A stretch of DNA of 32,375 bases from Nitrosotalea sp. (GTDB taxonomy: Archaea > Thermoproteota > Nitrososphaeria > Nitrososphaerales > Nitrosopumilaceae). The stretch spans positions 1 to 32,375 of the forward strand of contig JARCRW010000037.1 of the NCBI GenBank assembly GCA_029850515.1, in the 5' to 3' direction. Of this stretch, positions 2,903-25,481 are shown piece after piece. Within the stretch, counting starts at the first letter, position 1. Each line of letters opens with the position of its first letter. The notes beneath the pieces were generated by a model. It ran no database searches and had not been told where the DNA came from. It was given only the letters and a program-made list of their open reading frames with translations. The position numbers and the translations under genes are program-made.

Positions 2903-4306
2903 TTGTCACTTGCAACCCGGATGAGTACATCAAATGATACAACAAAACAAGCCTCTGATTATTACTATGACTATGTCTTCAACTGGTTTGATTTTGCATT
3001 GAAATACAACTCGGCACTCTTTGATGCAGGCTCAAAGGCACTAGATACTTTTTTTAGTTCAAGGGAAGGAACTGCACAGAACATTGAAAAAAACATCAGA
3101 TCTTCTTTTGATTTTACGCTTCGAGATGATCTAAATGATGATGCTTTGGCATCAAGCATGTCCGACTATGTTAATTCTTGGATGCAATTGTGTGGTCTTT
3201 TTGGATATGGCCAACTCACTTCCAATTTTTACGATTTTATATCATATGCAAACAGAATGCTAGAACCACTGAGGGACAATATCAGCAGAACGCCATCTGA
3301 TATTATCAATTGCTCCGAGACTTCTTGTGAAACACCAATCTTGAGAGACAACACCAACAGGACACCATCTGATATTGTAGAGATGAAGGGAGGCTTCAAG
3401 ATACGTCACTATAAATCCGACTTGGCACCAAAACACAAGACGCCTCTGCTAGTGATATATTCGCTTATCAACAGACACTACATTTTGGATCTTCTACCCC
3501 AAGTCAGTGTCATAAGAAATCTCCAAAAGCAAGGCTTTGATGTTTACACGACGGATTGGGGAACTCCAAACTCATTTGACAAGGATCTATCCCTTGAGAC
3601 ATATGCCGAAAAATACATAGGAAGCACGGTGGAAAAAATCAAGGAAATAAGCGGATCCGAAAAAGTATCATTGTTTGGTTACTGCTGGGGGGGACTATTC
3701 GCTCTTATCTATTCAGCTACACATCAAGAAAATGTCAAGAATCTGATTTTGCATGCTACTCCGGTCGATATAGAAAAGGAAAAGACAATAATAGAAAACT
3801 GGACTGCTCATCTCAATGCCGATAACCTGGTAGATGTATGTGGAAACATTCCTGGCTGGCTCCTCAATTTGGCATTCGTTCTACGCAATCCCGTGGAGAC
3901 AATGCTAAAGTATCCCAGATATTTTAGCGAACCACGAAGCCTCGATGAAATAACCCAGTTTTTTGCAATTGAGACATGGCTATACGACAGCAGGCCGATA
4001 ATAGGAGAAGTTTATCGTGAGATAGTGGACCAGGTATACAAGAAGAATCTGATGATACAAAATAAGATGAAGGTGGGTTCTAAAATAATCAATCTCAAAG
4101 ACATATCAATACCAGTCCTTGACATAGTTGGTACCAAGGATGATCTGGTACCCCCATCATCAAGCAAATCTGTACTTGATGCAATAGGTAGTACAGACAA
4201 GAGACTCGTTGAATTTCCAACAGGCCATGTTGGTTTGTGTATAAGTACAGCAGCACATGAAAAATTATGGCCAGAAGTTGGAAAGTGGCTTGCACAAAGA
4301 TCTTGA
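2903..4306 (+). CDS. phaC: Class III-type poly(3-hydroxyalkanoate) synthase PhaC (alternative ATG at 2921)
   Basis: PhaC lipase-like box GYCWGG with catalytic Cys; GTKDDLVPP (Asp) and PTGHVGLC (His) complete the triad; VYTTDWGTP motif. Confidence 0.93.
   Translation: MSLATRMSTSNDTTKQASDYYYDYVFNWFDFALKYNSALFDAGSKALDTFFSSREGTAQNIEKNIRSSFDFTLRDDLNDDALASSMSDYVNSWMQLCGLFGYGQLTSNFYDFISYANRMLEPLRDNISRTPSDIINCSETSCETPILRDNTNRTPSDIVEMKGGFKIRHYKSDLAPKHKTPLLVIYSLINRHYILDLLPQVSVIRNLQKQGFDVYTTDWGTPNSFDKDLSLETYAEKYIGSTVEKIKEISGSEKVSLFGYCWGGLFALIYSATHQENVKNLILHATPVDIEKEKTIIENWTAHLNADNLVDVCGNIPGWLLNLAFVLRNPVETMLKYPRYFSEPRSLDEITQFFAIETWLYDSRPIIGEVYREIVDQVYKKNLMIQNKMKVGSKIINLKDISIPVLDIVGTKDDLVPPSSSKSVLDAIGSTDKRLVEFPTGHVGLCISTAAHEKLWPEVGKWLAQRS
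3272..3379 (+). repeat. In-frame 72-nt-period duplication inside phaC (RDNISRTPSDII / RDNTNRTPSDIV)
   Basis: 3272-3307 and 3344-3379 encode near-identical 12-mers exactly 24 codons apart. Confidence 0.7.
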
Positions 4307-4600
4307 GTAACATGTAATACGTTTTCACTTGGAATTAACTCAATCATAGTTCCCAAAAAATTCATCAATATTTCAAAAGGCATTATACTCGGATCTTGAC
4401 TGGATATGCATTATGGTATTTTTATTATCTTGCAATCCGTATACGATGATGAGAAATTCCATGTGTTCAATCAGGTGATGGGGAAAAATTATTGATTAAA
4501 AAATAATAAAACTTTGAATGCCCAAAGTGTGCTCAAGATTAGATATTTCAATGAATCCGCTCTAATCATTAATCGATACCACTAGATTCAAACTAGTTCA

Positions 4601-5050
4601 TTAATTAATCCAATCTTCGTAATCTTCAAACAAGTTTTTATAAAATTCTATTTTAGAGTCTTCAGAATCTGACAATATTGTATGGATGTGTTTCACAAAA
4701 TCTGTAACTGTGATTATTCCAAGCGGTAGTTCACCATCTACAACAATCACTCTTCTGATTTTTTTATCAAGCATTTTTTGTACTATGTCATTTACTGGAG
4801 TAAGGGGAGATACGACTGTAATGGGGGAAGTCATGATTTTGCTTGCTACAAGTTCGTGAGGTCTTTTGTCTGGTACAATAACTTTGGATAACAGATCTCT
4901 TTCTGTTATCATGCCTTGAAGTTTTTCATTTTTTGTAAGCACTATGCAACTGACATTGTTTTTGTCCATTATTTTTGCAACCTCCGAGACAGAAACAGTT
5001 GCATCAAGAGTAACAAGTTTCTTACTCATTATGTCAAGTGCAGTACTCAT
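4601..5050 (-). CDS. Two-CBS-domain protein
   Basis: MSTALDIMSKKLVTLDATVSVSEVAKIM...ITERDLLSKV...GIITVTDFVKHI, paired CBS pattern. Confidence 0.9.
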   Translation of the reverse strand: MSTALDIMSKKLVTLDATVSVSEVAKIMDKNNVSCIVLTKNEKLQGMITERDLLSKVIVPDKRPHELVASKIMTSPITVVSPLTPVNDIVQKMLDKKIRRVIVVDGELPLGIITVTDFVKHIHTILSDSEDSKIEFYKNLFEDYEDWIN

Positions 5051-5282: not shown

Positions 5283-5783
5283 ATGTCAGAAAAAACCGTG
5301 GAAACAATGGCAACAATAGAAAATGTAACAAAAAAGCAACTAATCGAGGCAATCAAGACAAGCAAAAATGAACATGATTTATCTGGACAAAAAACCTCTA
5401 CTTCTATGCCTAATGTAGTGAAAAACAACACTTCGGAGATAATTGAAAAGATTGATTCTAAAATTCCGACATATGTTCAACTTTATTCTGACCTATACAA
5501 AAAATATCTGCACATGGCAAACAATTTCTGCACCACCTCTTGCTTGGCTCAAAAAGAATTCTTTGATAAGATGGGAGTAAATAATGCAATGCCTACTATG
5601 TTTGACGCCTATTTGGGATCTGTCAAACAAATGGTTCTACTTCAAATAGACATGAACGAAAACATGATCCAGTCTTACGTATCTCATAGGCTTACAGTAT
5701 TGGACTTTTATGATCAGATGATGAATAGGAACATTACCAATTTTGCAAAGATGTTTTCTTTGTTTAATGACCACACAAAATAG
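5283..5783 (+). CDS. PhaE-like subunit of PHA synthase / PHA-associated protein
   Basis: 166 aa helical protein next to phaC; YSDLYKKYLHMANNF...MFDAYLGSVKQM...LDFYDQMMNRNITNFAKMF resembles PhaE/phasin-like proteins; mostly contextual. Confidence 0.55.
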   Translation: MSEKTVETMATIENVTKKQLIEAIKTSKNEHDLSGQKTSTSMPNVVKNNTSEIIEKIDSKIPTYVQLYSDLYKKYLHMANNFCTTSCLAQKEFFDKMGVNNAMPTMFDAYLGSVKQMVLLQIDMNENMIQSYVSHRLTVLDFYDQMMNRNITNFAKMFSLFNDHTK

Positions 5784-8687: not shown

Positions 8688-10043
8688 TTATTTGTTATAA
8701 CTCTTGGTCTGATCCTGTCTTTTTGGAATCTTTCCAATGTCAATCGTAGTGATTATCACAGTGGATATGATTATGATAAAAGTAATCTCGGTATAGACCT
8801 TGGCATGTGGAACTCCAAACGTGAGGGCAAATGTGGAAAGTACTGCAGCTGCCAATCCTCTTGGTATCATAGACCTTATCACTTTTTTATCAAATTCGGG
8901 AAACCTTGAAGTAAACAAGGCTTTGGTAATTATTCTCCTAGATAGATAAAGTGCAATTGCAATTATTATCCCGACTATCACATATCTTAGCTGACCGAAT
9001 TCTGCAATCAATCCAACAAACACAAAGAAAAATGACCTTACCAGAAATGTCACCTCGTCATGAAATGTATCTTCCATGGAGATCTCTGGCATGCTAAACT
9101 TGAGATATCTTGAAAGCGTTTTTCTGTTACCTAATACCAGTCCAAAAATTAGAGCTGTTAATGCTCCTGATTCGCCAAGTGACTTGGCAGCGAAAAAAAG
9201 TACAAACAGTATGGCAAGTGTGAGCATGTATGCGTGCTTGATATTTGAAATCTTGGAGAAACCATAAAGCCAAGGTATGCCAATTCCAAATCCAAGTCCA
9301 ACGCCAACTATGATCTCTCTTCCAAAATCCAATCCCAGTAAACTAAGGCTGAAATGCCCTGATGAAATAATGTCAAAAAGCAAAAAGGCTCCTATGGTAG
9401 CCATGATATCGGTCATGGCAGATTCTAAAATCAAAATTGATTTGGTGTCTTCAGTAATTTGCAGTCTCTTTACTATGGCAAATACTACTATTGGACTAAT
9501 TCCACCTAAAATGGAACCGAGAAGTATTGCGCTTATCCACTGCCAGCCAAAAATATAGACTGCAAGAGATGAAACAATGGCCAACGTCGCTAAAAAGCTT
9601 AGTATTGCAACAAGCAGAGAATAATGTGCAGTTCTGATTACTGTCTTTATGTCAAGATTGAGGCCTCCGTCAAACATTATGATGATGAGTGCAAGAGATG
9701 AAAAATATGGAATAATTCTAATGATGGTGGAAGAATCCACTATGCTAAAGATTGGACCTAGGACAAATCCCACAACTGTAAGAAAAAGAACTTCTGGAAT
9801 TCCTGTCTTTCTGAAGAAGGCTTCTCCTGCCACACCGACAAAAATTATGACTCCTACAGCAAGAAGAATGACTTGAGCTGATGCAAGGTTAGTACCATGA
9901 AACACTGTCTGCGCAAGACTATGATTTATTCTAGTTATCTCTGTTGTAATAATGTTAGAATGTAAAGCCTGGTTTATCGATTCTGAGAAATTGGTTGTTC
10001 CAGTTACTGACGTTGCATATCTGATCAAATCTTGGAGGGTCAT
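8688..10043 (-). CDS. Monovalent cation:proton antiporter (CPA family, NhaP/KefB-like)
   Basis: 451 aa, about 12 TM; GIPEVLFLTVVGFVLGP, MFDGGLNLD, LGGISPIVVFAIVKRL, GALTALIFGLVLGN. Confidence 0.9.
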   Translation of the reverse strand: MTLQDLIRYATSVTGTTNFSESINQALHSNIITTEITRINHSLAQTVFHGTNLASAQVILLAVGVIIFVGVAGEAFFRKTGIPEVLFLTVVGFVLGPIFSIVDSSTIIRIIPYFSSLALIIIMFDGGLNLDIKTVIRTAHYSLLVAILSFLATLAIVSSLAVYIFGWQWISAILLGSILGGISPIVVFAIVKRLQITEDTKSILILESAMTDIMATIGAFLLFDIISSGHFSLSLLGLDFGREIIVGVGLGFGIGIPWLYGFSKISNIKHAYMLTLAILFVLFFAAKSLGESGALTALIFGLVLGNRKTLSRYLKFSMPEISMEDTFHDEVTFLVRSFFFVFVGLIAEFGQLRYVIVGIIIAIALYLSRRIITKALFTSRFPEFDKKVIRSMIPRGLAAAVLSTFALTFGVPHAKVYTEITFIIIISTVIITTIDIGKIPKRQDQTKSYNK

Positions 10044-10220
10044 TTCATTTGCATTAAAACTTTTTAATATGCGATAAAATTACTTGAGAAATCCATTATG
10101 ACGACATTTTTTCTTACACGAAATAAAGAGTTATTTTTGTAATTTTCATTTACTTTTGTTTTCATCATGTATACTTCATACAAATCAACTTTTTTCATAC
10201 ATATTCATTATTGATCTAAT

Positions 10221-10555
10221 CTACTTGCTGTGAAACTTTACGTATATTCCACCAGAACGTTGTTCCATCCAGGATAGATTTTGATCTACACGTCTTGTTC
10301 TTTTTACATCGTTAATTTCTTGCATGCACTTCTTTTCAATGTTGTAATATTTAGAGAATGATGATCCTTGTTACGTTACCATGTTACAGAAGACTTATCT
10401 CCTATCAATTTTTGACAAATTTCTCTTGCGGTGCCTCTTACATGCTGAGAAATCCATGTCTTGTCTACTTTATTATCTAAAAGTTGATCCAATTAGTTTC
10501 TGATTAAATCATGAGATGATTCATAGATTAAGACAAACGTAACATTGTTAATCAA
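10221..10555 (-). pseudogene. Decayed protein-coding gene, family not identified
   Basis: Minus strand reads VTFVLIYESSHDLIRN*LDQLLDNKVDKTWISQHVRGTAREICQKLIGDKSSVTW* and, in another frame, EKKCMQEINDVKRTRRVDQNLSWMEQRSGGIYVKFHSK*; coding-like but broken by stops and a frame change. Confidence 0.5.
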
Positions 10556-10566
10556 TTGTATTATAT

Positions 10567-11052
10567 TTGAAAACAATTCATAAAAACATGGATAAAATAT
10601 TTGCCTTGCCTCCAACTATTTTTGTTGGTACGATTGCAATGCTGTATGTTTTCCAAATGGTTAGCTCGGGAGAATTTTCACAAAATCTAATTAATAACAA
10701 GATTGAATCAATAGCAAATAAAGATAATCTTGCAGTGCTGAATGTAAGTGAAAGTATAGACTCTCATGCAGTTATGCATCTTTCAACTGTATTATACAAT
10801 ACTGGTAATGCTCCAATCAGTGACATTAGATTTTCAATGGAAAATATGGGATTACTGGGAAGTCCCTATGACAAGTCTATGATTACTACGAATTTGAATC
10901 CTGGAAAAACTGCATCATATGATGAGATTGTCATGCCTGTTAGAGGAGATCCAAGTATAGGAACAAAGATGCCAGTGACAATAGAAGGCATGTTACAAAA
11001 TGGTAAAAACATTGTTTTGTATGCTAGTACCATAGTGGGTAAAACAGATTGA
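10567..11052 (+). CDS. Membrane-anchored exported protein with CARDB-like beta domain
   Basis: TTG start, N-terminal TM (IFALPPTIFVGTIAMLYVFQM), extracellular LYNTGNAPISDIRFSMENMG...LNPGKTASYDEIV. Confidence 0.65.
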   Translation: MKTIHKNMDKIFALPPTIFVGTIAMLYVFQMVSSGEFSQNLINNKIESIANKDNLAVLNVSESIDSHAVMHLSTVLYNTGNAPISDIRFSMENMGLLGSPYDKSMITTNLNPGKTASYDEIVMPVRGDPSIGTKMPVTIEGMLQNGKNIVLYASTIVGKTD

Positions 11053-11462
11053 TAAGATAAATCATCATCACGGTATCTTGAAGTAGGCGCAAGAAATTTT
11101 TCGATGACGTTTTATTGATGAAAAATGTGTACAATCTACTGATCTTATGATCAGTTGATGATTCATGCCTTGGTATTATCCACGGTTGGTTTGAGCCTTT
11201 GATTAACGTAAAATATCAGAAATACGGTTACCTATTGCAAGGATAAAGACTAGGTACTACTTTCAATAGGTTATGAAAATGAGGAATCAAAGGGGAAAAC
11301 AATGAAGAGTTCTAAGGATCTATCCATATGACAAACTAATTGAGCATATTTCTCAAGTTAAAACTAGATTGTCGTCTCTAAGGTAAATTTTGTATGTCTA
11401 AATGAGAAATTGGAATAAACTTGCTAGAGATTTAGTAATCTATCTGTAATTTATGACCTCAC

Positions 11463-12584
11463 GTGAAATTATGTATCAAATGTGATGATAATTGGGCCTT
11501 GAAAATACGAAACAAGATTTTAACCGGATTTTTGTTAATTGTGCCTACCATCCTAGTTTTCTCATTCATTCAATTTTACTACACAGATCAATTGCAACAA
11601 GTAGCAAATAACGATAGCCTTGATCCTGTGATAGCAAAGCATGATGTTGATAATTTAGTACAGATATTGTCTAGTTTTCGTGTTGTTAGAGATGTAATAT
11701 TAATTGCCGAGGTTTTAATAATTGCGGTATTTGTATCACGTTCCATATCTCAACCAATAGAACATCTTGCTGATTCGTGTGCAAAGATAGATCCAAAAAA
11801 TCTACGGCCACTTCAGGGTGGAACTAAAAATGAGATTGGCAAAGTCATATCTGCCATAAATTTGATGATCGATCGCATAAATCAAAATGAAAAGGAGATA
11901 AGATCACAATATGAACATCTTCAATTACAAAATCTTAGGATTCAAAAATTGGCATCTGTTGGAGAATTAGCCGCACGTGTATCGCATAATTTGAGAAACC
12001 CTTTATCTGTCATCACTGGTACTATCGGAATCATTGAACAAACTGCTAAACACATGGACGAAGCTACAATATCGCGACTGAAAAGAATCTCTGATGCATC
12101 TTCTAATATGAAAAATCAAATAAACGGTGTGTTGACATTTGTAAAAGAAAAACCACTTGATATTGCAGATAATTCCTTAAAACAAATTCTACACTCTGCT
12201 TTGTCGAACATTCACAAACCTGAACTCATAACTGTGTCATTACCTGAAAACGATGTTTCCTTCAAGTGTGACGATAACAAATTACAAGTTGTTTTCATGA
12301 ATCTGATAGATAATGCAGTACATGCCATTGGAGAAAAAGGTACGATCAAAATTCAAGCTAATATTCAAGGCAAAGATCTTATCATAGATGTAGAAGATTC
12401 TGGACCGGGTATTTCAGATGATGTTCTTCCAAGAATATTTGATTCACTGTTTACTACAAAGGAATCCGGGACTGGGTTGGGTTTGTCATACTGCAAAAGT
12501 GTAATTGAACAACATGGGGGGAAAATAACCGTTAAAACAAAACCTACCGTATTTACTATTTACTTGCCTAATGTAATTAAATAA
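11463..12584 (+). CDS. Membrane sensor histidine kinase with HAMP domain
   Basis: Two TM, HAMP (SRSISQPIEHLADSC), H-box ARVSHNLRNPLSVI, N-box NLIDNAVHA, G boxes DSGPGIS and GTGLGLSYCKSVIEQHGG. Confidence 0.93.
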   Translation: MKLCIKCDDNWALKIRNKILTGFLLIVPTILVFSFIQFYYTDQLQQVANNDSLDPVIAKHDVDNLVQILSSFRVVRDVILIAEVLIIAVFVSRSISQPIEHLADSCAKIDPKNLRPLQGGTKNEIGKVISAINLMIDRINQNEKEIRSQYEHLQLQNLRIQKLASVGELAARVSHNLRNPLSVITGTIGIIEQTAKHMDEATISRLKRISDASSNMKNQINGVLTFVKEKPLDIADNSLKQILHSALSNIHKPELITVSLPENDVSFKCDDNKLQVVFMNLIDNAVHAIGEKGTIKIQANIQGKDLIIDVEDSGPGISDDVLPRIFDSLFTTKESGTGLGLSYCKSVIEQHGGKITVKTKPTVFTIYLPNVIK

Positions 12585-12649
12585 CAGGCCTGAAATGTAG
12601 ATTTAAGACAAATTAATGTTGAGTATATTAAACTAATTTAATCCCAACC

Positions 12650-12760
12650 TTGGCATATGATATTCCAACTGACAAGGAAACGGTACATCTATTCCACTTC
12701 TACGATAATCCTGAAATGTGTTGTGTTTCATGGTATTTAGAAAATGATAAATCATCATAA
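12650..12760 (+). CDS. Possible 36-aa leaderless small protein (TTG start)
   Basis: MAYDIPTDKETVHLFHFYDNPEMCCVSWYLENDKSS; TATA-like gtatatta at 12623-12630 about 24 nt upstream; could also be a gene remnant. Confidence 0.35.
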   Translation: MAYDIPTDKETVHLFHFYDNPEMCCVSWYLENDKSS

Positions 12761-12811
12761 GTGCATTTTGTTACGGAAGACTTTTCTTCTCTTACTGTAT
12801 TCTAATATGTA

Positions 12812-13189
12812 ATGTCACTACATCTAGACCATGTTGGGTTGTGCAATTCCATCCTATCTATTAATAAAAATATCCAATCTATTGCATTAATCAACAGACA
12901 GGGAAGGGCAGTTGAAAAAATCTCAAGACCTGGATTTACAAACCAATTTCCAGATTACATGAGTGAGATGTTCTTCATGCAGTGTGTTCTCCAAGTGTCC
13001 ATGGGCGGTGACTTTGATGAACATTTTGGCCCAATCAACTATTACATATCTGAGAGGAATAATCTTACAATGCTCACCTTCCCTATGGACGATCACATCA
13101 TTCTTGTAACAATAAACAAGAATGCTAGCCCAATATCATTAGCTAGGAAGATTGTAAATACTATTGATGACTCAAAAGCAACCACGTGA
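12812..13189 (+). CDS. Roadblock/profilin-like small sensor protein, similar to thaumarchaeal DUF6659-type proteins
   Basis: IQSIALINRQGRAVEKISRPG...MLTFPMDDHIILVTINKNASPISLARKI. Confidence 0.55.
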   Translation: MSLHLDHVGLCNSILSINKNIQSIALINRQGRAVEKISRPGFTNQFPDYMSEMFFMQCVLQVSMGGDFDEHFGPINYYISERNNLTMLTFPMDDHIILVTINKNASPISLARKIVNTIDDSKATT

Positions 13190-13295
13190 TACCTGATAAA
13201 ATCACTTTATGTGATAGGATGAGACAGACTAGGATCATTACCTGTCTGAATCCAAGATTTTAATTCTTTAATACTCTATGTTTTTCTACAAAAAC

Positions 13296-13691
13296 TCATG
13301 TTGATATCAAGATCAAATAAGCAAGTACGATTGCTGCAAAGATGACAAGACCTATGCTTGCTAAATACATGATAGGATGTCTAGGAATGTAAGCACCAGC
13401 TTCGATAGATTTCTGAGCTTTGAGATAATTCATCAATGCGTAAATTATAAGCAAAATTCCCAGACCAATCATACTCATGCCCAACAAGGTTGATGAGGAT
13501 TGGGTTGGAAGATTTGATGGAATTGTTTGATTCTTTGTTATGATGCTAAATTCTTTAAGAAATAGACCAAATCTTGCAATTACAAAACCCAGTCCCATGA
13601 GTGCAATACAGGTGCGTAACCATGCAAGAAAAGTGCGTTCATTGGCTAGGTGTTCCGTTACTCGATCAGATTTTTTATCTCCTGTAGACAT
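13296..13691 (-). CDS. DUF202 family membrane protein
   Basis: HLANERTFLAWLRTCIALMGLGFVIARFGLFL signature, 3 TM. Confidence 0.9.
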   Translation of the reverse strand: MSTGDKKSDRVTEHLANERTFLAWLRTCIALMGLGFVIARFGLFLKEFSIITKNQTIPSNLPTQSSSTLLGMSMIGLGILLIIYALMNYLKAQKSIEAGAYIPRHPIMYLASIGLVIFAAIVLAYLILIST

Positions 13692-13738
13692 TTGACTGGA
13701 ACTAATTTTATGTACTTATAAGGTTCTGGTTTTTATCG

Positions 13739-13796
13739 GATACTGCTACGTCTTTGGTTGCTAACACTACCAAATTATGTTTGATCAACAGATAAG
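13739..13796. repeat. Dispersed intergenic repeat, copy 1
   Basis: gatactgctacgtctttggttgctaacactaccaaattatgtttgatcaacagataag; roughly 75% identical by eye to 17961-18017. Confidence 0.6.
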
Positions 13797-13824
13797 ATGG
13801 CAACATCTTTGGTCATTTGTAATA

Positions 13825-14439
13825 CTATGTTTGCAAAAACCTGCCATATCCTACTATGCCGTTCTTATTGACATCCCATATTGCAGGTTTTATCCATAAA
13901 TTCTCATCATTATCAATTTCAAGATAAAGAGTTGCCAACACATTTGATGGTGCGGCTTGAAGAGACGCAGGTCCTGCAAACGCCTTACCGTTTATCATGT
14001 TGTACATGCTTCCATGGCATGGACATTCTCCTCTTTTTCTACCTTCTTGTGGCCAGTATTTCCACAAGCACCATAGATGTAAGCAAACCATGCTGTAGGC
14101 ACGAAAAGCACTGACATCTTCTTTGCTACCGCCAAGTTCATCAGGCAATCGAACAAACTGCCATTTCTTAAATGGTTCTTTATCAAGCACAGGATCGCCT
14201 GACAATGGATAAGTAATGACCTCGGAATGATTCTTTGGAAAAGTCTTGACGTTTGCCTGTGTTCCGTCTGGGAGTATGACCTCAGCTTTTATCGGCATTA
14301 TATTCGAGGGGTTTGGCATGAATTTTCCCCATGGAATAAACGGTGTAAATGCCAGTCCAACTCCTGCAGCAGCCAACAACTTTAGAAAATCTCGTCTAGA
14401 TACATCGCTCTTGGAAGGTTCTATCTCTATTGGATCCAC
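13825..14439 (-). CDS. Rieske [2Fe-2S] protein with Tat signal
   Basis: SRRDFLKLLAAAG Tat motif; CLHLWC...CPCHGSMY cluster ligands. Confidence 0.93.
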   Translation of the reverse strand: MDPIEIEPSKSDVSRRDFLKLLAAAGVGLAFTPFIPWGKFMPNPSNIMPIKAEVILPDGTQANVKTFPKNHSEVITYPLSGDPVLDKEPFKKWQFVRLPDELGGSKEDVSAFRAYSMVCLHLWCLWKYWPQEGRKRGECPCHGSMYNMINGKAFAGPASLQAAPSNVLATLYLEIDNDENLWIKPAIWDVNKNGIVGYGRFLQT

Positions 14440-14522
14440 TCAAACTCACTACCTGTAAAGAAATGACTCTCTCGAAGCGCAATCTGTGTAGACAAAGAAT
14501 CTTTAATTTGTTGATCAATCAT
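14427..14522 (-). CDS. Candidate 31-aa leader ORF overlapping the Rieske start
   Basis: MIDQQIKDSLSTQIALRESHFFTGSEFEWIQ*; 13-nt overlap with Rieske GTG; TATA-like cataaaag (14544-14551, minus strand) about 26 nt upstream of its ATG. Confidence 0.45.
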   Translation of the reverse strand: MIDQQIKDSLSTQIALRESHFFTGSEFEWIQ

Positions 14523-14718
14523 GCTCTTAATACTACTTCTTGGCTTTTATGTCTCCCTATCATTATCTTTGTTTGACACATCTTACTAAAAGGGACTTGT
14601 GTATATCTCGAGATATAGCATTCGCACAAAACACTATGGCTATCTTAAACATCTGCTGAACTTGTTGCGGTATTGATATCATAGTTTGACTACCTGTTGC
14701 TATCTATAAGGAGAACTG

Positions 14719-14835
14719 ATGATTATCTTGCTTGAAAATTTAGTCAGATCACATGTCATACTTTTTGGGTTACATCTTATTGCTATCATTTACTTTTCTA
14801 TGTTTTTGCTAATTGACGCTGTTTTGGTTTGCTAA
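14719..14835 (+). CDS. Candidate 38-aa single-TM small protein
   Basis: aaggag Shine-Dalgarno then ATG: MIILLENLVRSHVILFGLHLIAIIYFSMFLLIDAVLVC. Confidence 0.4.
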   Translation: MIILLENLVRSHVILFGLHLIAIIYFSMFLLIDAVLVC

Positions 14836-14882
14836 AATAATCTATTATGCATGCTTCATGAGTATAACTATAAGCATTGCAG

Positions 14883-14899
14883 TGGTTTTGACAAAACCA
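14883..14899. promoter_or_regulatory. 17-bp near-perfect palindrome TGGTTTTG-A-CAAAACCA
   Basis: 8-bp perfect arms with 1-nt centre in the region upstream of the DoxX-like gene. Confidence 0.35.
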
Positions 14900-15086
14900 A
14901 CAAATACCTTTGCGAAATTTTGGTGATTCTTTTTCTATCATGATGATATAATACGTCATTCCAAGTATTATCTATGATCTCATATTGTTTTTGTCTGCAA
15001 TCGGGATCATTATATTCTTGAATCACGAGTGTTTTATCAAGAATGTTGGAATTTGTATATCATAATTTACAGGATCCAGAAGAAAT

Positions 15087-15845
15087 ATGGTGTTGTTGAA
15101 CTACAAAAATTATGTAAATGAACTCCCGCGGTATGGGCTTGCAGTAGTTTTTGCATGGTTTGGTATTGACAAATTCTTGATACACCAATACTATGTTTCA
15201 TGGTTCTCGGCAACAAAAAGTATCATGGTACTTTTACCTTTTCAGGACATCAGCATGTCAGTGTATTCAATCGGAATTGTAGAAATATGCTTGTCGGCAT
15301 TATTGTTTTTAGGAATTAAAATTCGGGTGGTCTCTTCAGTTGTTATTGTATTTCTTACTGTGATATTATTCACAGCCAAATATCCATCCAGCTTTCCACA
15401 AGATATTGGCCTCATTGGTATAGCGCTTGTGCTTGTAATGTCTTCCATGTCTGCCAAGAACAAAAGACAAGAAAATCGCTTCAAATACTCGCGCATAATT
15501 ACATATTCTGTTTCTCTTGTACTTGTTCTCTGGGCTGCAGATTATTTCCTAAATTATGAAAGACATGTAGGCTGGATCCATCTATTCAGTCCGATTTTTT
15601 CAAATCTCGGGACAAATGAAACATTTTATCTCATTGTAATTGTAGGAATTTCAGAAATTTTACTTGCGATATTTTTGATAATAGGGGATCGTATTAAGAA
15701 CAAATATCCCTTTGTTATAACAGTAGCATTCCTTATCTTTGCTATCTTGACACTCGATCCTCCTATAAATAATCATCAAACCATAGGTCTTATCATGACA
15801 TCCTTTTGGTTAGGGTATCGTTATTTTGCTAGCAACCTATCGTAA
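15087..15845 (+). CDS. DoxX/DoxD-like integral membrane protein with two repeated halves
   Basis: RYGLAVVFAWFGIDKFLIHQYYVSWF...VEICLSALLFLGIKIR and LVLVLWAADYFLNYERHVGWIHLF...SEILLAIFLIIGDRIK look like tandem DoxX units. Confidence 0.65.
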   Translation: MVLLNYKNYVNELPRYGLAVVFAWFGIDKFLIHQYYVSWFSATKSIMVLLPFQDISMSVYSIGIVEICLSALLFLGIKIRVVSSVVIVFLTVILFTAKYPSSFPQDIGLIGIALVLVMSSMSAKNKRQENRFKYSRIITYSVSLVLVLWAADYFLNYERHVGWIHLFSPIFSNLGTNETFYLIVIVGISEILLAIFLIIGDRIKNKYPFVITVAFLIFAILTLDPPINNHQTIGLIMTSFWLGYRYFASNLS

Positions 15846-15907: not shown

Positions 15908-16513
15908 TCAAAATCTTGCTCTAGATGTAACTACCAATATTCCCAAAACCGATATTGCAAGGATGATGGTTGTTGTACTACCAAATTCTGGAACTGTTTG
16001 TAAAGTAAACTTGTCTCCCAACGGGGTAGGAAGAGGATTGAATTCAACCCCCACTATGGATGCAGAAATTTCATAATTTCCAGTTCCAGTAAATACTGGC
16101 CCGCTGACCTGATATGGTCCAGTAGTAGTGTTGCTTGGATCCGACTGACCTCCGGTGACACCAATCGCTCCAGATCCACCCGTAAATTCCAATGTTAGAT
16201 TGCCACTATGGGTGTGCATTTGTTGGTGAAACACTTCCTTGCCATTCTGTGAAATTATAACTAGATAGTCAAGATGGTCAATCTTGTTGGGGGTGATCGA
16301 ACTACCAAGAAATGCGCTCTGGTTTGAATTAGGAGTAAAATAAAACGTGATGTTATTTGTTTTACTGGTATCTGGCGGAAATGGAAGTATGGTAAGATTG
16401 ATGTTGTTTCCCTTGAACTGACCACCCGTGTCTCCAAACACATCAATCTGATTTGACATCATCAAAAATGGAGTAAATAAAATCAATGCAAGCGATACTG
16501 CATAACCTTGCAT
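15908..16513 (-). CDS. PEFG-CTERM exported protein
   Basis: N-terminal signal; C-terminal VPEFGSTTTIILAISVLGILVVTSRARF (PEFG, TM, basic tail). Confidence 0.88.
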   Translation of the reverse strand: MQGYAVSLALILFTPFLMMSNQIDVFGDTGGQFKGNNINLTILPFPPDTSKTNNITFYFTPNSNQSAFLGSSITPNKIDHLDYLVIISQNGKEVFHQQMHTHSGNLTLEFTGGSGAIGVTGGQSDPSNTTTGPYQVSGPVFTGTGNYEISASIVGVEFNPLPTPLGDKFTLQTVPEFGSTTTIILAISVLGILVVTSRARF

Positions 16514-16658: not shown

Positions 16659-17186
16659 TCATGCTCTTGTCACCGATATCTCGCACTCGGCATCCCCATT
16701 GAGCATGCACTTTGGTTGAATTATGAGGACTTTTTGCTTGTAATGCGCGGCTGCAGATTCTACTAGACCTTCTGCAAAGTGACACATTCTTAAAGATGAG
16801 CAATAGTGAATCACGACATTGTCTTTGCTTGGTCGTGATACTTGTAGAGTGGGAGGATTAGCACCACGAATCTGGTTTCTGACTTCTTTGTGAATGTAAT
16901 CTTCAGTATGCTCCAGAAAATCCAAGACATCCCATGTATTATCAATATAGTGTCGGAATTGTGCAATAAGGTGAGGTGCTACGAATATTCCAAAATTTCG
17001 AAGAAATTGGTTGAGAGGCAGATGGCTCAGTTTGGCTGCTGTTGAAAGAAGTTGCTTTGCTTGCAAATCTGTAGGTATGTCCAAATAAACACCAGTATCT
17101 GAAAGATTTGCTTTTAAGAGCCATTCCTGCCATTTTTCTTCTGATCCTGCAAATTGTTGCAAATTAACAAAAATCAGTTTATGCAC
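16659..17186 (-). CDS. Stand-alone H-NOX / heme NO-binding (HNOB) domain protein
   Basis: Co-linear with recalled Tt H-NOX: MHKLIFVNLQQFAGSEEKWQEWL; FLEHTEDYIHKEVRNQIRGANPP (proximal His99); HYCSSLRMCHFAEGLVESAAAHY (YxS of YxSxR); CMLNGDAEC. Confidence 0.85.
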   Translation of the reverse strand: MHKLIFVNLQQFAGSEEKWQEWLLKANLSDTGVYLDIPTDLQAKQLLSTAAKLSHLPLNQFLRNFGIFVAPHLIAQFRHYIDNTWDVLDFLEHTEDYIHKEVRNQIRGANPPTLQVSRPSKDNVVIHYCSSLRMCHFAEGLVESAAAHYKQKVLIIQPKCMLNGDAECEISVTRA

Positions 17187-17382
17187 AGATCATATTTCTA
17201 ATCAGCGATATTAAAGTATACACAAGTAATAACATGTAGGTGTGGATATCAAGAAGAAAAATTCAAAATCAAACCATGTTCCAGTTCATGAACTTGTAGT
17301 TCTATGACAACATGTCTGAGATGGAATTTATGAGACTACACGCATCCTAATCCTTATCGGGTAGAACGTCGTATTATAATAC

Positions 17383-17931
17383 ATGATGATGCAAGAAAGT
17401 CCAAACGGCATACTGGAAATATTAGATAGTTTCATGAAAGATGATGTCCTCAAAGATTTGTATGAACAAGGCATCATGCCAGTGGAATGCATCATGAGAA
17501 GAGATGTGGCGAGTCTGGATCACACCCACACTGCGTACGATGCAGCGATGCTTATGATGGAAAAGGGAACAGAATGTATCGTGGTAACTGCATATGGTAA
17601 ACTCTTTGGCATGATAACTGAAAGGGATATTATATGCATGGTTGTCGGTCTCAATATACCGCTTAGAAACCTAATCCTGAGTTTTCTAGCCTCAAGACCA
17701 TTGATATGCATCAGTCCGCATCAAACTGTTGAAGATGCAGTAGAAATTATGAAAAAATACAACATACGTCAACTTCCAGTAGTAGACGTAGACAAGCTTG
17801 TTGGGTTAGTTACAGCAAGAGATCTAGCCATGTTCTCATATGTACCGGAGATCAGATTTTGTAAAAACTATCCATTCCACGATGCCCGGATTCAGAAAAA
17901 TATAATTGAAAAGTTGATTGAATTTGAATAG
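17383..17931 (+). CDS. Two-CBS-domain protein
   Basis: MRRDVASLDHTHTAYDAAMLM...GMITERDIICMV...TVEDAVEIMKKYNIRQLPVVD...GLVTARDLAMF. Confidence 0.92.
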   Translation: MMMQESPNGILEILDSFMKDDVLKDLYEQGIMPVECIMRRDVASLDHTHTAYDAAMLMMEKGTECIVVTAYGKLFGMITERDIICMVVGLNIPLRNLILSFLASRPLICISPHQTVEDAVEIMKKYNIRQLPVVDVDKLVGLVTARDLAMFSYVPEIRFCKNYPFHDARIQKNIIEKLIEFE

Positions 17932-18785: not shown

Positions 18786-21179
18786 TTACTGCGAGCTCTT
18801 GTAGAATCTACTTACCAGGTAAACCTTGAGAATATCATTTACAAGAAATGATGCAACAAGCGAATAAACAATTATTGCAAGCAACGGAATGTACCCTAGT
18901 GGACCAAGCTCCCAAAAGCCCAGTATCGATATTGCGGCTACGATTGCGATTTCACTAACAGTCGTAATGAGAAGAATATTGCTCGGCCTTGACTTCCAAA
19001 AGTGGCCGCGCTCACGCACTATCATTAGACTAAAGAGTGATTCTATGACCAGATATGAAAAAGTAAAGGTGTAGAGTCTGTGGATGTTACTGCTTAATCC
19101 GAAATAGTTCAAGCCTACCATGGTCAGCACCACACCCTCGATCACGGCAAGCATTGCCAGAGGTATTCCAACCTTGAATAACCATGAGGTATCAAGCGAG
19201 TCTGGGCTCTTTGAATGTCTGACATTATCTGTCGATATTGACATGGTAGCAAAATCGGCAAAAAATATCAGTAATACCATACTAAATATCGAGATTACAA
19301 GACTGTGAGTAAGAAATAACATGGACACGATATATCCAACCATGAAAGTCTTTTTGGTTACCATGTTGAGCACCCAACTGAATATTCTTTGGTAAATCAT
19401 CCTACCAGTCTTTATGATTGCAAGTATGCCTCCAAGGCCCTCTGTTACAAGCACCGCGCTTGCCGAGTCCTTTGCAATATCCGTTGCATTTCTGACTGCT
19501 ATTCCAACTTCTGCCTGCTTTAGTGCAGGTGCGTCATTGACTCCGTCGCCAGTCATTCCAACAATATGTCCCCTGCTCTGGAGACTCTTGACTATGGTAT
19601 ACTTGTCTTCAGGATAGATCTCGGCCATGCCACTACTTTCTTCTATCATAGAGCCTGACAAGTTTTGATTCTGCACATCGGGCATTCTGATGATGTTGTC
19701 CCCAAGACCTATCTGCGGTGCGATATTCTTTGCGATTGGAAGCGCGTCGCCCGTAAGCATCTTTACTGATACGCCGAGGTCATTGAGCTGCAAGACTGTC
19801 TCGCGAGAGTCTTGTCTTATCCTGTCAGCTACTCCTGCAAGGCCAACCAGTTCAAATCCGCCCTCGTGGTTTTCTTTGGCAACTGCTATGACCCTCAATC
19901 CTTTTGCTGAGAGGGCATCTGCATCCTTGCTCAAAGATGCGGTGTTCTCATCTGTCATTTTGCAGTAAAAACAGATGGCTTTGAACGAACCTTTCCTTAC
20001 GTGAAATTTTTCATCAGATCTCTGAACTGTAGATCCTGTCATCCTCGTCTGCGGATCAAATGGCACAAATTCTGTCTGGGAATAGCCGTCTAGTGGGATG
20101 TTCGTCTCCTTGGCTGCTGCCAGAAATGCAAGGTCTATGGGATCTTGATTTGCTTCATTTGAAGCAAGTGCACCGTAAAGTATGACATCATTTTTTTCAT
20201 ATCCGTTAACTGGAAATTCTTCTTCAACGAAGAGCTTGTTCATTGTCATTGTGCCAGTCTTGTCTACACAAATCACATCCATTATAGCAGCGTCCTCGCT
20301 TGCACTAAGTCTTGTAACAAGAACTCCCTTCTTTGCAAGCACCGACGAACCAAGTACCATGTTCAAAGTGAGCATGGTTGGCATCGCCACAGGTACGGCA
20401 GAAACTAAAAGTACTACAGCAAGTGGCAACAACACCACAAACTGGAAACCTGTCAAAAGAGCATAGGCAAAGGCAATTAGAAGGGATATGATAATTATCA
20501 TAGCAAGTCGTCGTGCAATTTTTACGGTCAGTGCTTCCATGTGCAATTTTGGTTTTGCCAAATCAACTAGTTCGACTGTCTTACCGAAATATGTCCTGAT
20601 TCCAGTAGCATCAACGATTCCAGTGGCCTCACCACGTTTTACTGTGGAACCTGAATAGACTGGTTCTCCACCGGACTTTTCCACCGTTGCCGATTCACCG
20701 GTGAGTACTGATTGATCAACATCAGTGCTTCCACCTACAATCTTTATGTCAGCTGGTAGAATGTCACCTGCTCTGACTCTGATGAGGTCTCCAGGCACAA
20801 GCTCTCTTGCAGGAATGACTGACCACATACCGTCTCTCTTTACCCTGCTTTGAATACTCAACCTCTGTTTGAGAGCGGCCATTGCCACACTTGCTTTTCT
20901 CTGTCGCATGATGGATATTATAGCATTGGAAAGGAGAAGTGCTACGATGATGATTGTATCAGGATACTTGCCCAAGAACCATGTGAGAAATGCGGTAGCT
21001 TCAAGCATCCATGGAACAATGCCCCAAAAGCACTTTACTAGTGTTATGAGAAAATGCGTCTTTTTCTCCGGGACCTCGTTGTAGCCATATTCTGCCAACC
21101 TTTTTTTGGCCTCTTCAGTTCCCAGTCCTTTTTCTATGTCTGTTTTGTCGTTTGCTAGTGTGCCCACGTTTCTCACCAT
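18786..21179 (-). CDS. P-type (IIIA, PMA-like) H+-transporting ATPase
   Basis: TGES, phosphorylation site CVDKTGTMTMN, MTGDGVNDAPALKQAEVGIAV; short N-terminus; 797 aa. Confidence 0.92.
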   Translation of the reverse strand: MVRNVGTLANDKTDIEKGLGTEEAKKRLAEYGYNEVPEKKTHFLITLVKCFWGIVPWMLEATAFLTWFLGKYPDTIIIVALLLSNAIISIMRQRKASVAMAALKQRLSIQSRVKRDGMWSVIPARELVPGDLIRVRAGDILPADIKIVGGSTDVDQSVLTGESATVEKSGGEPVYSGSTVKRGEATGIVDATGIRTYFGKTVELVDLAKPKLHMEALTVKIARRLAMIIIISLLIAFAYALLTGFQFVVLLPLAVVLLVSAVPVAMPTMLTLNMVLGSSVLAKKGVLVTRLSASEDAAIMDVICVDKTGTMTMNKLFVEEEFPVNGYEKNDVILYGALASNEANQDPIDLAFLAAAKETNIPLDGYSQTEFVPFDPQTRMTGSTVQRSDEKFHVRKGSFKAICFYCKMTDENTASLSKDADALSAKGLRVIAVAKENHEGGFELVGLAGVADRIRQDSRETVLQLNDLGVSVKMLTGDALPIAKNIAPQIGLGDNIIRMPDVQNQNLSGSMIEESSGMAEIYPEDKYTIVKSLQSRGHIVGMTGDGVNDAPALKQAEVGIAVRNATDIAKDSASAVLVTEGLGGILAIIKTGRMIYQRIFSWVLNMVTKKTFMVGYIVSMLFLTHSLVISIFSMVLLIFFADFATMSISTDNVRHSKSPDSLDTSWLFKVGIPLAMLAVIEGVVLTMVGLNYFGLSSNIHRLYTFTFSYLVIESLFSLMIVRERGHFWKSRPSNILLITTVSEIAIVAAISILGFWELGPLGYIPLLAIIVYSLVASFLVNDILKVYLVSRFYKSSQ

Positions 21180-22601: not shown

Positions 22602-23447
22602 TCATATTCCAGATAGGGTTTTAGCAATTATGAATAATGCAACTGCAACCAAAAGAATTGAAAACACTTTGGAAAGTTTTTCTCTTGGAAGTTTTACAGA
22701 AAGTTTCGTTCCTACAAATCCTCCTCCTATGCCACCAACAATGAAAAGAACCGAAACAAACCACTGAATCTGAGCTTCAAGAGAATATCTTATTGCAGTA
22801 GTTAGGCCAAAGGCACTTACAGGTAGGAGTGAAGTTCCAATGGCATCTATTATGTTCAAACCTGCGGAATACATTAGGGCGGGAGTGATCAAAAAGCCTC
22901 CACCGATACCAAAGTAGCCTGCTGTAACACCCACCGCAAAACCAATGATGATTATTTTCTTTTTGTGTAAAAGAAATATGTGATGTTTGTGCTGCAGTTC
23001 GGTGGGTAGAATCGTTAACTTTCTTTTCCACATTGTAACTGCTATGGCTATCATGAACAAGCCAAATAAGAGCAAGAGATGTTTTGAGGGAGTAAGCAGG
23101 CCAAGCTGGGCTCCAATTAACGCACCAAATATGCCGGGAATTGCAAAGACAAAACCTTCTTTGATTTTAACATGTCCGAATTTCTTGTGGTGTATTAGAT
23201 TGGTCAGGGCATTTACAGCTACAGCAAGTGCTGAAGTTCCAAGTGCAACATGTGGTTCAATGCCTATGGCATAAATTAAAAGAGGGACAGCAAGTATGGA
23301 ACCTCCGCCTCCAACCACCCCTAGACTGAATCCTACTATGATCCCAGATATCATGGAAAGAATGATAGTGATTGGTGAAAGTTCTAAACTGGAAATTTGA
23401 GATAAACTCAAAGTGGAAAGAGAAAAAACGAGGGAGATTAATTCCAT
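22602..23447 (-). CDS. TauE/SafE (TSUP) family sulfite/sulfonate exporter
   Basis: GFSLGVVGGGGSILAVPLLIYAIG and GVTAGYFGIGGGFLITPALMYSAGL repeats. Confidence 0.92.
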   Translation of the reverse strand: MELISLVFSLSTLSLSQISSLELSPITIILSMISGIIVGFSLGVVGGGGSILAVPLLIYAIGIEPHVALGTSALAVAVNALTNLIHHKKFGHVKIKEGFVFAIPGIFGALIGAQLGLLTPSKHLLLLFGLFMIAIAVTMWKRKLTILPTELQHKHHIFLLHKKKIIIIGFAVGVTAGYFGIGGGFLITPALMYSAGLNIIDAIGTSLLPVSAFGLTTAIRYSLEAQIQWFVSVLFIVGGIGGGFVGTKLSVKLPREKLSKVFSILLVAVALFIIAKTLSGI

Positions 23448-23464
23448 GTGCTATTGACCCGGAT

Positions 23465-24883
23465 CTAGGATGTTGGTATGGCACATCTATTTGGACCAAT
23501 CTCCAAATTTGCAACTTCCAAGACAGGTACTGGTTGAGACGACCTGTTTATCTGGATTATTTTTTCATAATTCATCGGTTTTGGAAGTGTCGTACTGGCA
23601 ACTTTTTCTATGAAACTATCGTGCAAGAGTTCCAATATTGGCAGATTCTTTGCTTCTCTGATAGTGGTATAATGGATGCCGTTTTTAGAACCAGACTGCT
23701 CTCCGTGATGAGCTGGAAGAACAATCACCTCGTTTGGCAAGGTAAGAATCTTTTTGTGCAGTGTATCATACAAGTCATTTGCAAACTCGTTTGCATTATT
23801 TCTCAAATCAGGTCTTCCTATTCCTTCTACAAAAAGAATATCTCCACTAAAGACATATTTTTCATTCAAGACATAGGACAAGCTTCCTGCCGTGTGTCCT
23901 GGAGTATGAATTGCTCTGATCTTCGAATCTCCGACAATTATAATATCACCATCTCCAACTCTGTTACTTTCAAAATCATATTGTTCGTACTTGCTCATGT
24001 ATAGTTCAGAGTTTGTAATTTTTACAAGTTCTCGCGCTGCAGAAACATGATCTGCATGTTGATGAGTGTCGATGACTTTTACTATTTGCAACCCCTCATT
24101 TCTTGCAAACTCTACATACTTCTCTGCAGGATAGACTGGATCAATTACTATGGCTTGCCCTTTTGAGCCCACTATGTATGACAGACACCCTTTTCCAATT
24201 TTTTCTACCTGTACCACAATGGATTTTTCTCTTGATACGACTTGAGAATTTAGAACTTGTCCCCAACCTGCAAGACCTCCTGTGAGCGATAATGCATCTA
24301 TTCCATTTCTTGCCAATGCAAACGCAGCTACCATTGATCTGTTTCCGTGGGGACAGATTGTGACTATCTGCTTGTTTTTTGGTATCCTGTCAACAGATTC
24401 CTTCTTAAATAATTCTGAAAGCGGGATGTTTATGCTACCTGGAATTTTAAAGTCTGAAAACTCTTCAGCTTGTCTTACGTCTACAAGTACGATATCTTCT
24501 TTTTTCTTAATCTTGGACCATAATTCCTCGGGAGAAATTGTGGAATGGGTTTCTTTTTTGACAAGACCTCTGTTCCAACCTTTGATTCCGTCCTTGAGAA
24601 AGTGAGAGTCCAATCCATGTGATGCCATCATACTAGCTGTCTCTGCAGATATGATTCCATCTTCATCAATTAGTACAATTTTTACACCTTTTGGAATTCT
24701 TGGCATTATGGTCTCTTTTGCGCGCGAGTCACAGACTGCATGAACAGAGCCTTCTATGTGCTCATGAATATAATGCTCCCTTAGTCGTAGATCAAACACT
24801 AGAAGTGGCTTTTCACTTTTTAGATCTGCATACAATTCTTCTGCAGTGACTGCTAGTTTGTTAGATTCTTGATTGGTGTTCAT
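23465..24883 (-). CDS. Rhodanese-rhodanese-metallo-beta-lactamase (persulfide dioxygenase) fusion
   Basis: Start reassigned to MNTNQESN (24883), not 24997. First rhodanese lacks Cys (LIDEDG); second has CPHGNRS; MBL has THQHADH, PGHTAGS, GDILFVEGIGRPDL, and C-terminal LEIGPNRCA. Confidence 0.9.
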   Translation of the reverse strand: MNTNQESNKLAVTAEELYADLKSEKPLLVFDLRLREHYIHEHIEGSVHAVCDSRAKETIMPRIPKGVKIVLIDEDGIISAETASMMASHGLDSHFLKDGIKGWNRGLVKKETHSTISPEELWSKIKKKEDIVLVDVRQAEEFSDFKIPGSINIPLSELFKKESVDRIPKNKQIVTICPHGNRSMVAAFALARNGIDALSLTGGLAGWGQVLNSQVVSREKSIVVQVEKIGKGCLSYIVGSKGQAIVIDPVYPAEKYVEFARNEGLQIVKVIDTHQHADHVSAARELVKITNSELYMSKYEQYDFESNRVGDGDIIIVGDSKIRAIHTPGHTAGSLSYVLNEKYVFSGDILFVEGIGRPDLRNNANEFANDLYDTLHKKILTLPNEVIVLPAHHGEQSGSKNGIHYTTIREAKNLPILELLHDSFIEKVASTTLPKPMNYEKIIQINRSSQPVPVLEVANLEIGPNRCAIPTS

Positions 24884-24886
24884 GAG

Positions 24887-24899
24887 TGTACATAGTACA
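24887..24899. promoter_or_regulatory. Candidate operator TGTAC-ATA-GTACA
   Basis: Perfect 5-bp inverted repeat 4 bp upstream of the Rhd-MBL start, in the 70-bp divergent gap. Confidence 0.4.
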
Positions 24900-24953
24900 A
24901 GAAAGTATTTAGCGAATATGTCTTCAATGTAATCAACTGTGTTCGGATGATAC

Positions 24954-25481
24954 ATGAGTAGCAAAAAAACAAGTACATTCACATTTAGAATAGACAAGGA
25001 GTATGAGAGAGTCTTGCGTGAGGAAGCTCACTCTAAAAAAATCACTGTAAATACTCTTGCAAACCAGATTTTTGGTGACTATGTGGAATGGCAACGATAT
25101 ATGGAAAAGTTTGGAACCATAGTTCTAAGCAGAGAAGCATTCAAAATTGTACTTGACTCGCTTGATGAAAAAAGCCTTCTAAACTTGGCAGTGGATATTG
25201 GAGAAAAAGCACCAAAGGAGTTTATCTTGTTTAAATGGAAAGAAATTGCCATTGACAATGTAATCAAGTTCGTCAAAATGTACTTTGATCACTGTGGATA
25301 TGGAACACATGACCATACAAAAACTGGAGGTACGATTACTTTTAGCATACATCATGATTTAGGCAAAAAGGGTTCACTATTTCTCAAGACATTCTTGGAG
25401 ACATTGATAAAATCAACACTTGGAAAATCCTGCAATTCGACCGTAACTACAAATTCGTTAGTGCTTAGTTTTCAAGACTAG
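24954..25481 (+). CDS. Ribbon-helix-helix-like regulator with Cys/His-rich C-terminal domain
   Basis: STFTFRIDKEYERVLREEAHSKKITVNTLANQIFGDYV (RHH-like); YFDHCGYGTHDHTKTGGTITFSIHHDLG; divergent from the Rhd-MBL gene. Confidence 0.65.
   Translation: MSSKKTSTFTFRIDKEYERVLREEAHSKKITVNTLANQIFGDYVEWQRYMEKFGTIVLSREAFKIVLDSLDEKSLLNLAVDIGEKAPKEFILFKWKEIAIDNVIKFVKMYFDHCGYGTHDHTKTGGTITFSIHHDLGKKGSLFLKTFLETLIKSTLGKSCNSTVTTNSLVLSFQD

Follow-up and report, generated by a model that had tools for sequence, protein, structure and literature searches.

Introduction

In some bacterial H-NOX proteins, a zinc-site motif mediates the sensing of oxidants. The fourth zinc ligand of this site is either a histidine or a glutamine in H-NOX groups 2 and 3 (PMC7108781). 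The H-NOX protein of Vibrio cholerae responds to cysteine oxidation when it is free of heme (PMC7108781), and the Caulobacter protein binds NO yet is activated by cysteine oxidation only (PMC12329717). With regard to heme, a mutant of sGC R139, the equivalent of the arginine in the YxSxR motif of H-NOX proteins, is cited in connection with the apo form (PMC3212528). MetOD1 of methanogens has been described as HNOB-like (PMC5847659), and a central, seemingly obligate role as an intermediate has been reported for NO in archaeal ammonia oxidation (PMC7490402).

Here we examine an H-NOX gene carried by the archaeon Nitrosotalea sp. The stretch of DNA analysed, hereafter called the window, comprises 32,375 nucleotides of contig JARCRW010000037.1 (assembly GCA_029850515.1). 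A stand-alone archaeal H-NOX with a variant heme motif had been proposed in an earlier note on this window, and its claims are taken up below where the results bear on them.

Identification of the H-NOX gene

The gene is located on the minus strand at positions 16659..17186, where the earlier note had placed an ORF of 175 amino acids. An ORF of this length is indeed present, with a GTG start codon at 17186 and a stop at 16659, and the plus-strand frame across the same interval is crowded with stops. The predicted protein matches the Pfam profile PF07700 (HNOB) over residues 15-155 (2.6e-23) with a score of 83.1 bits, compared to a cut-off of 25.5 bits. Its top phmmer matches in the PDB are entries for the Shewanella oneidensis H-NOX protein, at about 1e-11. 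An AlphaFold model computed from three sequences, which contains no cofactor, has a mean pLDDT of 76.5 and a pTM of 0.75. In a Foldseek search with this model the nearest structure is 4u9b, again the S. oneidensis protein (TM 0.77), and the top matches are all H-NOX proteins. Chance cannot account for a match of this strength, and we regard the ORF as a genuine H-NOX. The identity given in the earlier note is thereby upheld, both by the HMM search that had been suggested as a check and by the structure model. The fragment of the Thermoanaerobacter tengcongensis (Tt) H-NOX that had been cited for comparison is likewise accurate, as the full Tt sequence matches 1u4h along all 184 residues. The YxSxR motif is typical of the family, and the HNOB profile is not defined by it. 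We retain the protein in the family despite its missing YxSxR arginine because the profile match, the fold and the proximal histidine are all in place.

The possibility that the ORF instead encodes a V4R-type domain, which would bind a small molecule or hydrophobic ligand, is highly improbable. A weak match to V4R (PF02830) does exist at residues 134-173, and the cysteine motif of the protein also occurs in V4R, MetOD1 and PoxR-type domains (PMC5847659). However, the V4R score of 26.3 bits falls below the cut-off of 31 bits for that profile, whereas the HNOB score is well over its own. Moreover, 44 H-NOX and sGC chains rank before the first TRAPP/Bet3 fold in the Foldseek search (TM 0.50 versus 0.77), and H99, Y128 and S130 are retained. 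On these three grounds the V4R identity is disfavoured.

Predicted heme pocket and zinc-cysteine site

Residue conservation was assessed in a table of 14 rows, made up of the three archaeal copies of the gene (see below) and 11 outside H-NOX homologs, in which no gap occurs between Y128 and C135. H99 aligns with the heme-ligating histidine of the Tt and S. oneidensis proteins and is invariant in all 14 rows, as are P112, Y128 and S130. The assignment of H99 as the proximal histidine in the earlier note, together with that of Y128 and S130 to the YxSxR motif, is borne out by this alignment. The arginine position of the motif is occupied by Leu132 in 3/3 archaeal copies and by arginine in 11/11 outside homologs. 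The neighbouring Arg133, a lysine in one of the archaeal copies (isolate REEA57), aligns with the second basic residue that is found in most other H-NOX proteins (SHRRLC, SPRKLC, SKRRMS). Because this alignment is free of gaps, the arginine has simply been exchanged for leucine, and a shift of the arginine by one residue is ruled out. The claim of a genuinely variant heme motif is therefore upheld, but the displaced arginine that was part of the same claim is the second basic residue of the family.

The exchange of this arginine may, by analogy with sGC, result in weaker heme binding or low heme occupancy, and we have lowered the claim of normal heme binding because Leu132 is present in all three archaeal copies. 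The residues that stabilise O2 in the Tt protein (W9, N74 and Y140) correspond to L9, V69 (threonine in isolate clean277) and F137. Since the archaeal protein thus has neither the distal tyrosine nor the polar network of Tt-type O2 binders, it is not expected to bind O2 stably.

A complete predicted zinc-site motif, formed by C135, Q157, C160 and C168, is located in the C-terminal subdomain and is invariant in the three archaeal copies. These residues coincide in position and spacing with the zinc ligands C139, H161, C164 and C172 of the S. oneidensis protein, so that the archaeal protein has the three cysteines and the histidine or glutamine that characterise the site in groups 2 and 3. The earlier note had overlooked this site, which offers a possible second sensing mode without a need for NO.

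Distribution and history

Among 252 genomes of the family that were searched, HNOB is found in three, all of which belong to the genus of the window: the window genome (G000) and isolates REEA57 (G139) and clean277 (G105). The same count is obtained among genomes of the class (3/401), and 2/401 genomes of the phylum have a match; REEA57 is absent from the latter matches and presumably was not drawn in the sample. The REEA57 and clean277 proteins are 85% and 78% identical, respectively, to the window copy. A fourth, weak hit within this genus, in G299 (E 4e-4), sits at a trpB/trpA junction and was rejected as spurious. Contamination of the assembled genomes was also rejected, as three separate assemblies carry the gene, two of them in the same archaeal gene order. 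Phage records gave no match, and no relative was found in viral contigs; an alignment that takes in distant H-NOX proteins is too diverse for a scan of this kind.

In a tree built from the rpoB genes of 30 members of the genus, the three carriers do not form one clade. The window genome and REEA57 fall into a clade of seven genomes with five non-carriers, and clean277 is located elsewhere with two non-carriers, such that the presence of H-NOX requires three changes on the tree when all rows are counted, and one when the count is confined to labelled rows. Between the window genome and REEA57, dS is 0.56 for H-NOX and 0.53 for rpoB, as is expected for vertical descent. Between the window genome and clean277, the corresponding values are 0.81 and 2.07, with third-position differences of 0.349 and 0.460. 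Because the H-NOX dS is well below that of rpoB, this comparison gives an indication, from one gene of 175 codons, that H-NOX was transferred within the genus after the two lineages split. The dN/dS among the three genus copies is 0.13-0.16, which shows that the gene is under purifying selection where it is kept.

The nearest relative of the window genome is G313 (rpoB 97.6%). Its corresponding locus matches window positions 9167-15156, followed by what is left, in decayed form, of 16122-16471; beyond this point the DNA is unrelated and includes a Fic/Doc gene. It seems that G313 has lost the part of the locus that held H-NOX, or has had it replaced, although this genome is 76% complete and might hold a copy elsewhere. 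The first 2300 positions of the locus (L127 1-2300) carry the Fic/Doc-family gene and small ORFs beside decayed remnants of the H-NOX-flanking genes of the window, which marks a region of gene turnover.

Genomic context and candidate partners

Two genes flank H-NOX. Divergent from it on the plus strand (17383..17931) is a gene for a protein with two CBS domains (Pfam CBS, 94.7 bits), which we followed by genus search and synteny. Downstream, co-oriented on the minus strand and separated by a 145 bp gap, is a gene (15908..16513) for a predicted secreted or membrane-anchored protein with no Pfam match, whose ortholog adjoins H-NOX in REEA57 and not in clean277. Within the limits set by the contigs, no neighbour other than the CBS protein is retained in every H-NOX carrier. 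Its gene is adjacent to H-NOX in the window genome and REEA57; in clean277 the ortholog is found close to the beginning of contig C19, and H-NOX close to the end of contig C23. No overlap was found between these two contig ends, whose contents would fit the same divergent arrangement.

The genes next to H-NOX in the window encode neither a kinase nor a cyclic-nucleotide enzyme nor a chemoreceptor, in agreement with the earlier statement that no recognised partner gene adjoins it. Nor does a kinase adjoin the gene in any of the three carrier loci, as would be seen for an H-NOX/HnoK pair. The HAMP kinase at 11463, the only kinase in the window according to the earlier note, lacks support as a partner because it is missing from the syntenic REEA57 locus, and it was rejected.

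The CBS protein and the class III nucleotide cyclases of these genomes are leads only, and either would be compatible with heme-based or thiol-based sensing. That the CBS protein is the output partner, or is itself regulated by H-NOX, seems quite unlikely. It is the sole neighbour kept with H-NOX in the window genome and REEA57, and the clean277 ortholog (59%, the best match outside REEA57) starts 330 bp from its contig end, with H-NOX starting 157 bp from the end of the other contig. Yet these two ends share no overlap, and the genus is rich in paralogous CBS proteins, which are present without H-NOX; none of the characterised H-NOX partners is known to contain CBS domains. A slimmer chance still is given to a partnership with a class III cyclase, which would create an analogue of a split soluble guanylate cyclase. 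In clean277, a short class III cyclase (PF00211, 42.8 bits) is encoded 259 bp downstream of H-NOX on the same strand and is followed by a GvpD/KaiC-like ATPase; the equivalent cyclase/ATPase pair of REEA57 is located ~6.5 kb upstream of H-NOX, also on the same strand, and four other loci for class III cyclases are present in the window genome. However, a gap of 259 bp is not operon-like, the short cyclase occurs in four genomes without H-NOX, and the window genome has no near ortholog of it (its best match there is a 53% longer paralog).

Several observations on these loci stand apart from H-NOX. The short class III cyclase and the directly following GvpD/KaiC-like double-RecA ATPase (clean277, L073 16797-19103; REEA57, L071 6154-8484) look like an accessory two-gene module of the genus, and the short cyclase is also found in G129, G116, G395 and G404. 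An HNH endonuclease ORF of REEA57 (L071 11619-12128) ends in 71 bp that are 96% identical to window positions 4600-4670, which form the 3' end of another CBS ORF (4601-5050). This common segment is perhaps an insertion or recombination scar.

Promoter region and host genome

A putative archaeal TATA box, TTTAATAT, is located at 17208..17215 on the minus strand, 21 nt before the start codon. Direct reading of the upstream sequences revealed that the element recurs 21-22 nt upstream of the H-NOX start in REEA57 and clean277. This spacing in all three copies suggests that the mRNA is leaderless. A scan for sigma-70 promoters, a model that is not apt for archaea, yielded six hits versus 3.7 expected, which is near chance.

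The host genome comprises 1.70 Mb in 97 contigs and is 99.55% complete. It encodes an archaeal AmoA (353.5 bits by profile search), and this gene content supports the earlier view of the host as an ammonia oxidiser. A search of the genome with the AhbD (heme b synthase) model gave radical-SAM matches below the cut-off only. The NirK model identified a single multicopper protein of 451 amino acids, whose score of 114 bits is below the cut-off of 296.

Further genes were noted in the window. A P-type ATPase of the plasma-membrane proton-efflux type (18786-21179, minus strand; TIGR01647, 686 bits, over the NCBIfam cut-off) would fit life at low pH, as in an acid-adapted archaeon. A PhaC-like polyhydroxyalkanoate synthase is encoded at 2903-4306; its best match, class III PhaC at 321 bits, falls slightly short of the cut-off (365 bits), and the ORF at 5283-5783 could be a putative PhaE-like companion. 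A protein with two rhodanese domains and a metallo-beta-lactamase domain (22602-24997, minus strand) adjoins a permease that by eye resembles TauE/SafE, and is also encoded near H-NOX in REEA57. These two proteins are perhaps a pair for sulfur or persulfide detoxification.

Proposed function

We propose, with a probability of roughly 0.6, that the protein is a stand-alone cytosolic sensor, encoded by an accessory gene of one genus, that detects NO or CO through a heme of the non-O2 class, has a zinc-thiol redox switch as well and acts in trans. The N-terminal helices and the helix bearing His99 would form the usual H-NOX pocket, where Fe(II) heme on His99 would bind NO, or CO, and would not stably bind O2. 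This half of the mechanism is proposed because His99 and the pocket are conserved. The C-terminal subdomain would hold zinc at C135, Q157, C160 and C168, and oxidation of this site would alter the same output surface, as judged from the precedent of the V. cholerae and Caulobacter proteins. The redox half is proposed because the zinc site is intact and because such precedents are published. With Leu132 in place of the propionate-binding arginine, the heme is perhaps held more loosely, and much of the signalling may then fall to the thiol/zinc switch. A partner would receive the output in trans.

An alternative with a modest chance of being right, well short of even, is that the H-NOX fold has turned mainly into a zinc-thiol redox sensor in which heme is weakly bound or absent, the exchange of arginine for leucine being a sign of relaxed heme binding. 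The uniform replacement of this arginine in the archaeal copies, the four invariant zinc ligands and the responses to cysteine oxidation of the heme-free V. cholerae protein (PMC7108781) and of the Caulobacter protein (PMC12329717) speak for such a protein. However, loss of the histidine would be expected if heme had been abandoned, and His99, Pro112, Tyr128 and Ser130 are conserved under selection. A broader proposal is more speculative, and we consider it unlikely. It holds that an archaeal H-NOX branch moves among members of one ammonia-oxidising genus, that it has lost the heme-propionate arginine, and that its zinc-thiol switch now acts as the chief sensor or as an equal one. Such a sensor would read the oxidative or nitrosative stress created by the host's own ammonia oxidation and would act through a partner class not known from bacterial H-NOX systems, either the CBS protein or a stand-alone class III cyclase.

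The earlier note had suggested that the protein could monitor ammonia-oxidation flux or nitrosative stress. The idea of a general flux monitor is weakened by the rarity of the gene in the family and by its apparent loss or transfer between closely related genomes, and a stress sensor for a particular niche is the better fit.

A small soluble H-NOX candidate of this kind permits a direct test of whether NO, or the oxidative stress accompanying it, is sensed by some ammonia-oxidising archaea. As a natural variant, the protein also probes the weight of the YxSxR arginine in heme retention, and whether a zinc-thiol switch works without tight heme binding.

Comparison with known H-NOX systems

The earlier description of the protein as a stand-alone archaeal H-NOX is correct as to its stand-alone form, and it is not the sole archaeal case. 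H-NOX is already known in archaea, because a plasmid of Natrinema salinisoli carries an annotated one (WP_226007972.1), of similar length and with three cysteines. The Natrinema protein is 28% identical and differs in its intact YxSxR motif (YNSDR), in a glutamate at the fourth zinc position and in the presence of PAS-domain proteins nearby. In a tree of 14 rows, the window group joins Natrinema and two Bacteroidota sequences with modest support (80/76). A literature search, of incomplete coverage, found no paper describing H-NOX in ammonia-oxidising archaea.

The Tt H-NOX (1u4h) shares its fold, its proximal histidine and the equivalent of its Pro115 with the archaeal protein. However, it binds O2 via Y140, W9 and N74, is fused to a chemoreceptor and has no zinc site. 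The S. oneidensis protein (SO2144; 2kii, 4u9b) is the best match by both sequence and fold; it has equivalent zinc-ligand positions and, like the archaeal protein, lacks the distal tyrosine. At ~23% identity, it differs from the archaeal protein in having an intact YxSxR arginine, a cognate kinase (HnoK) and a bacterial host. The H-NOX proteins of V. cholerae and Caulobacter vibrioides are oxidant-responsive and have a site of three cysteines and a histidine or glutamine, the V. cholerae protein having glutamine as the archaeal protein does (PMC7108781). Both act on the kinase HnoK, whereas the archaeal H-NOX has no adjacent kinase and combines its predicted zinc site with a YxSxR variant.
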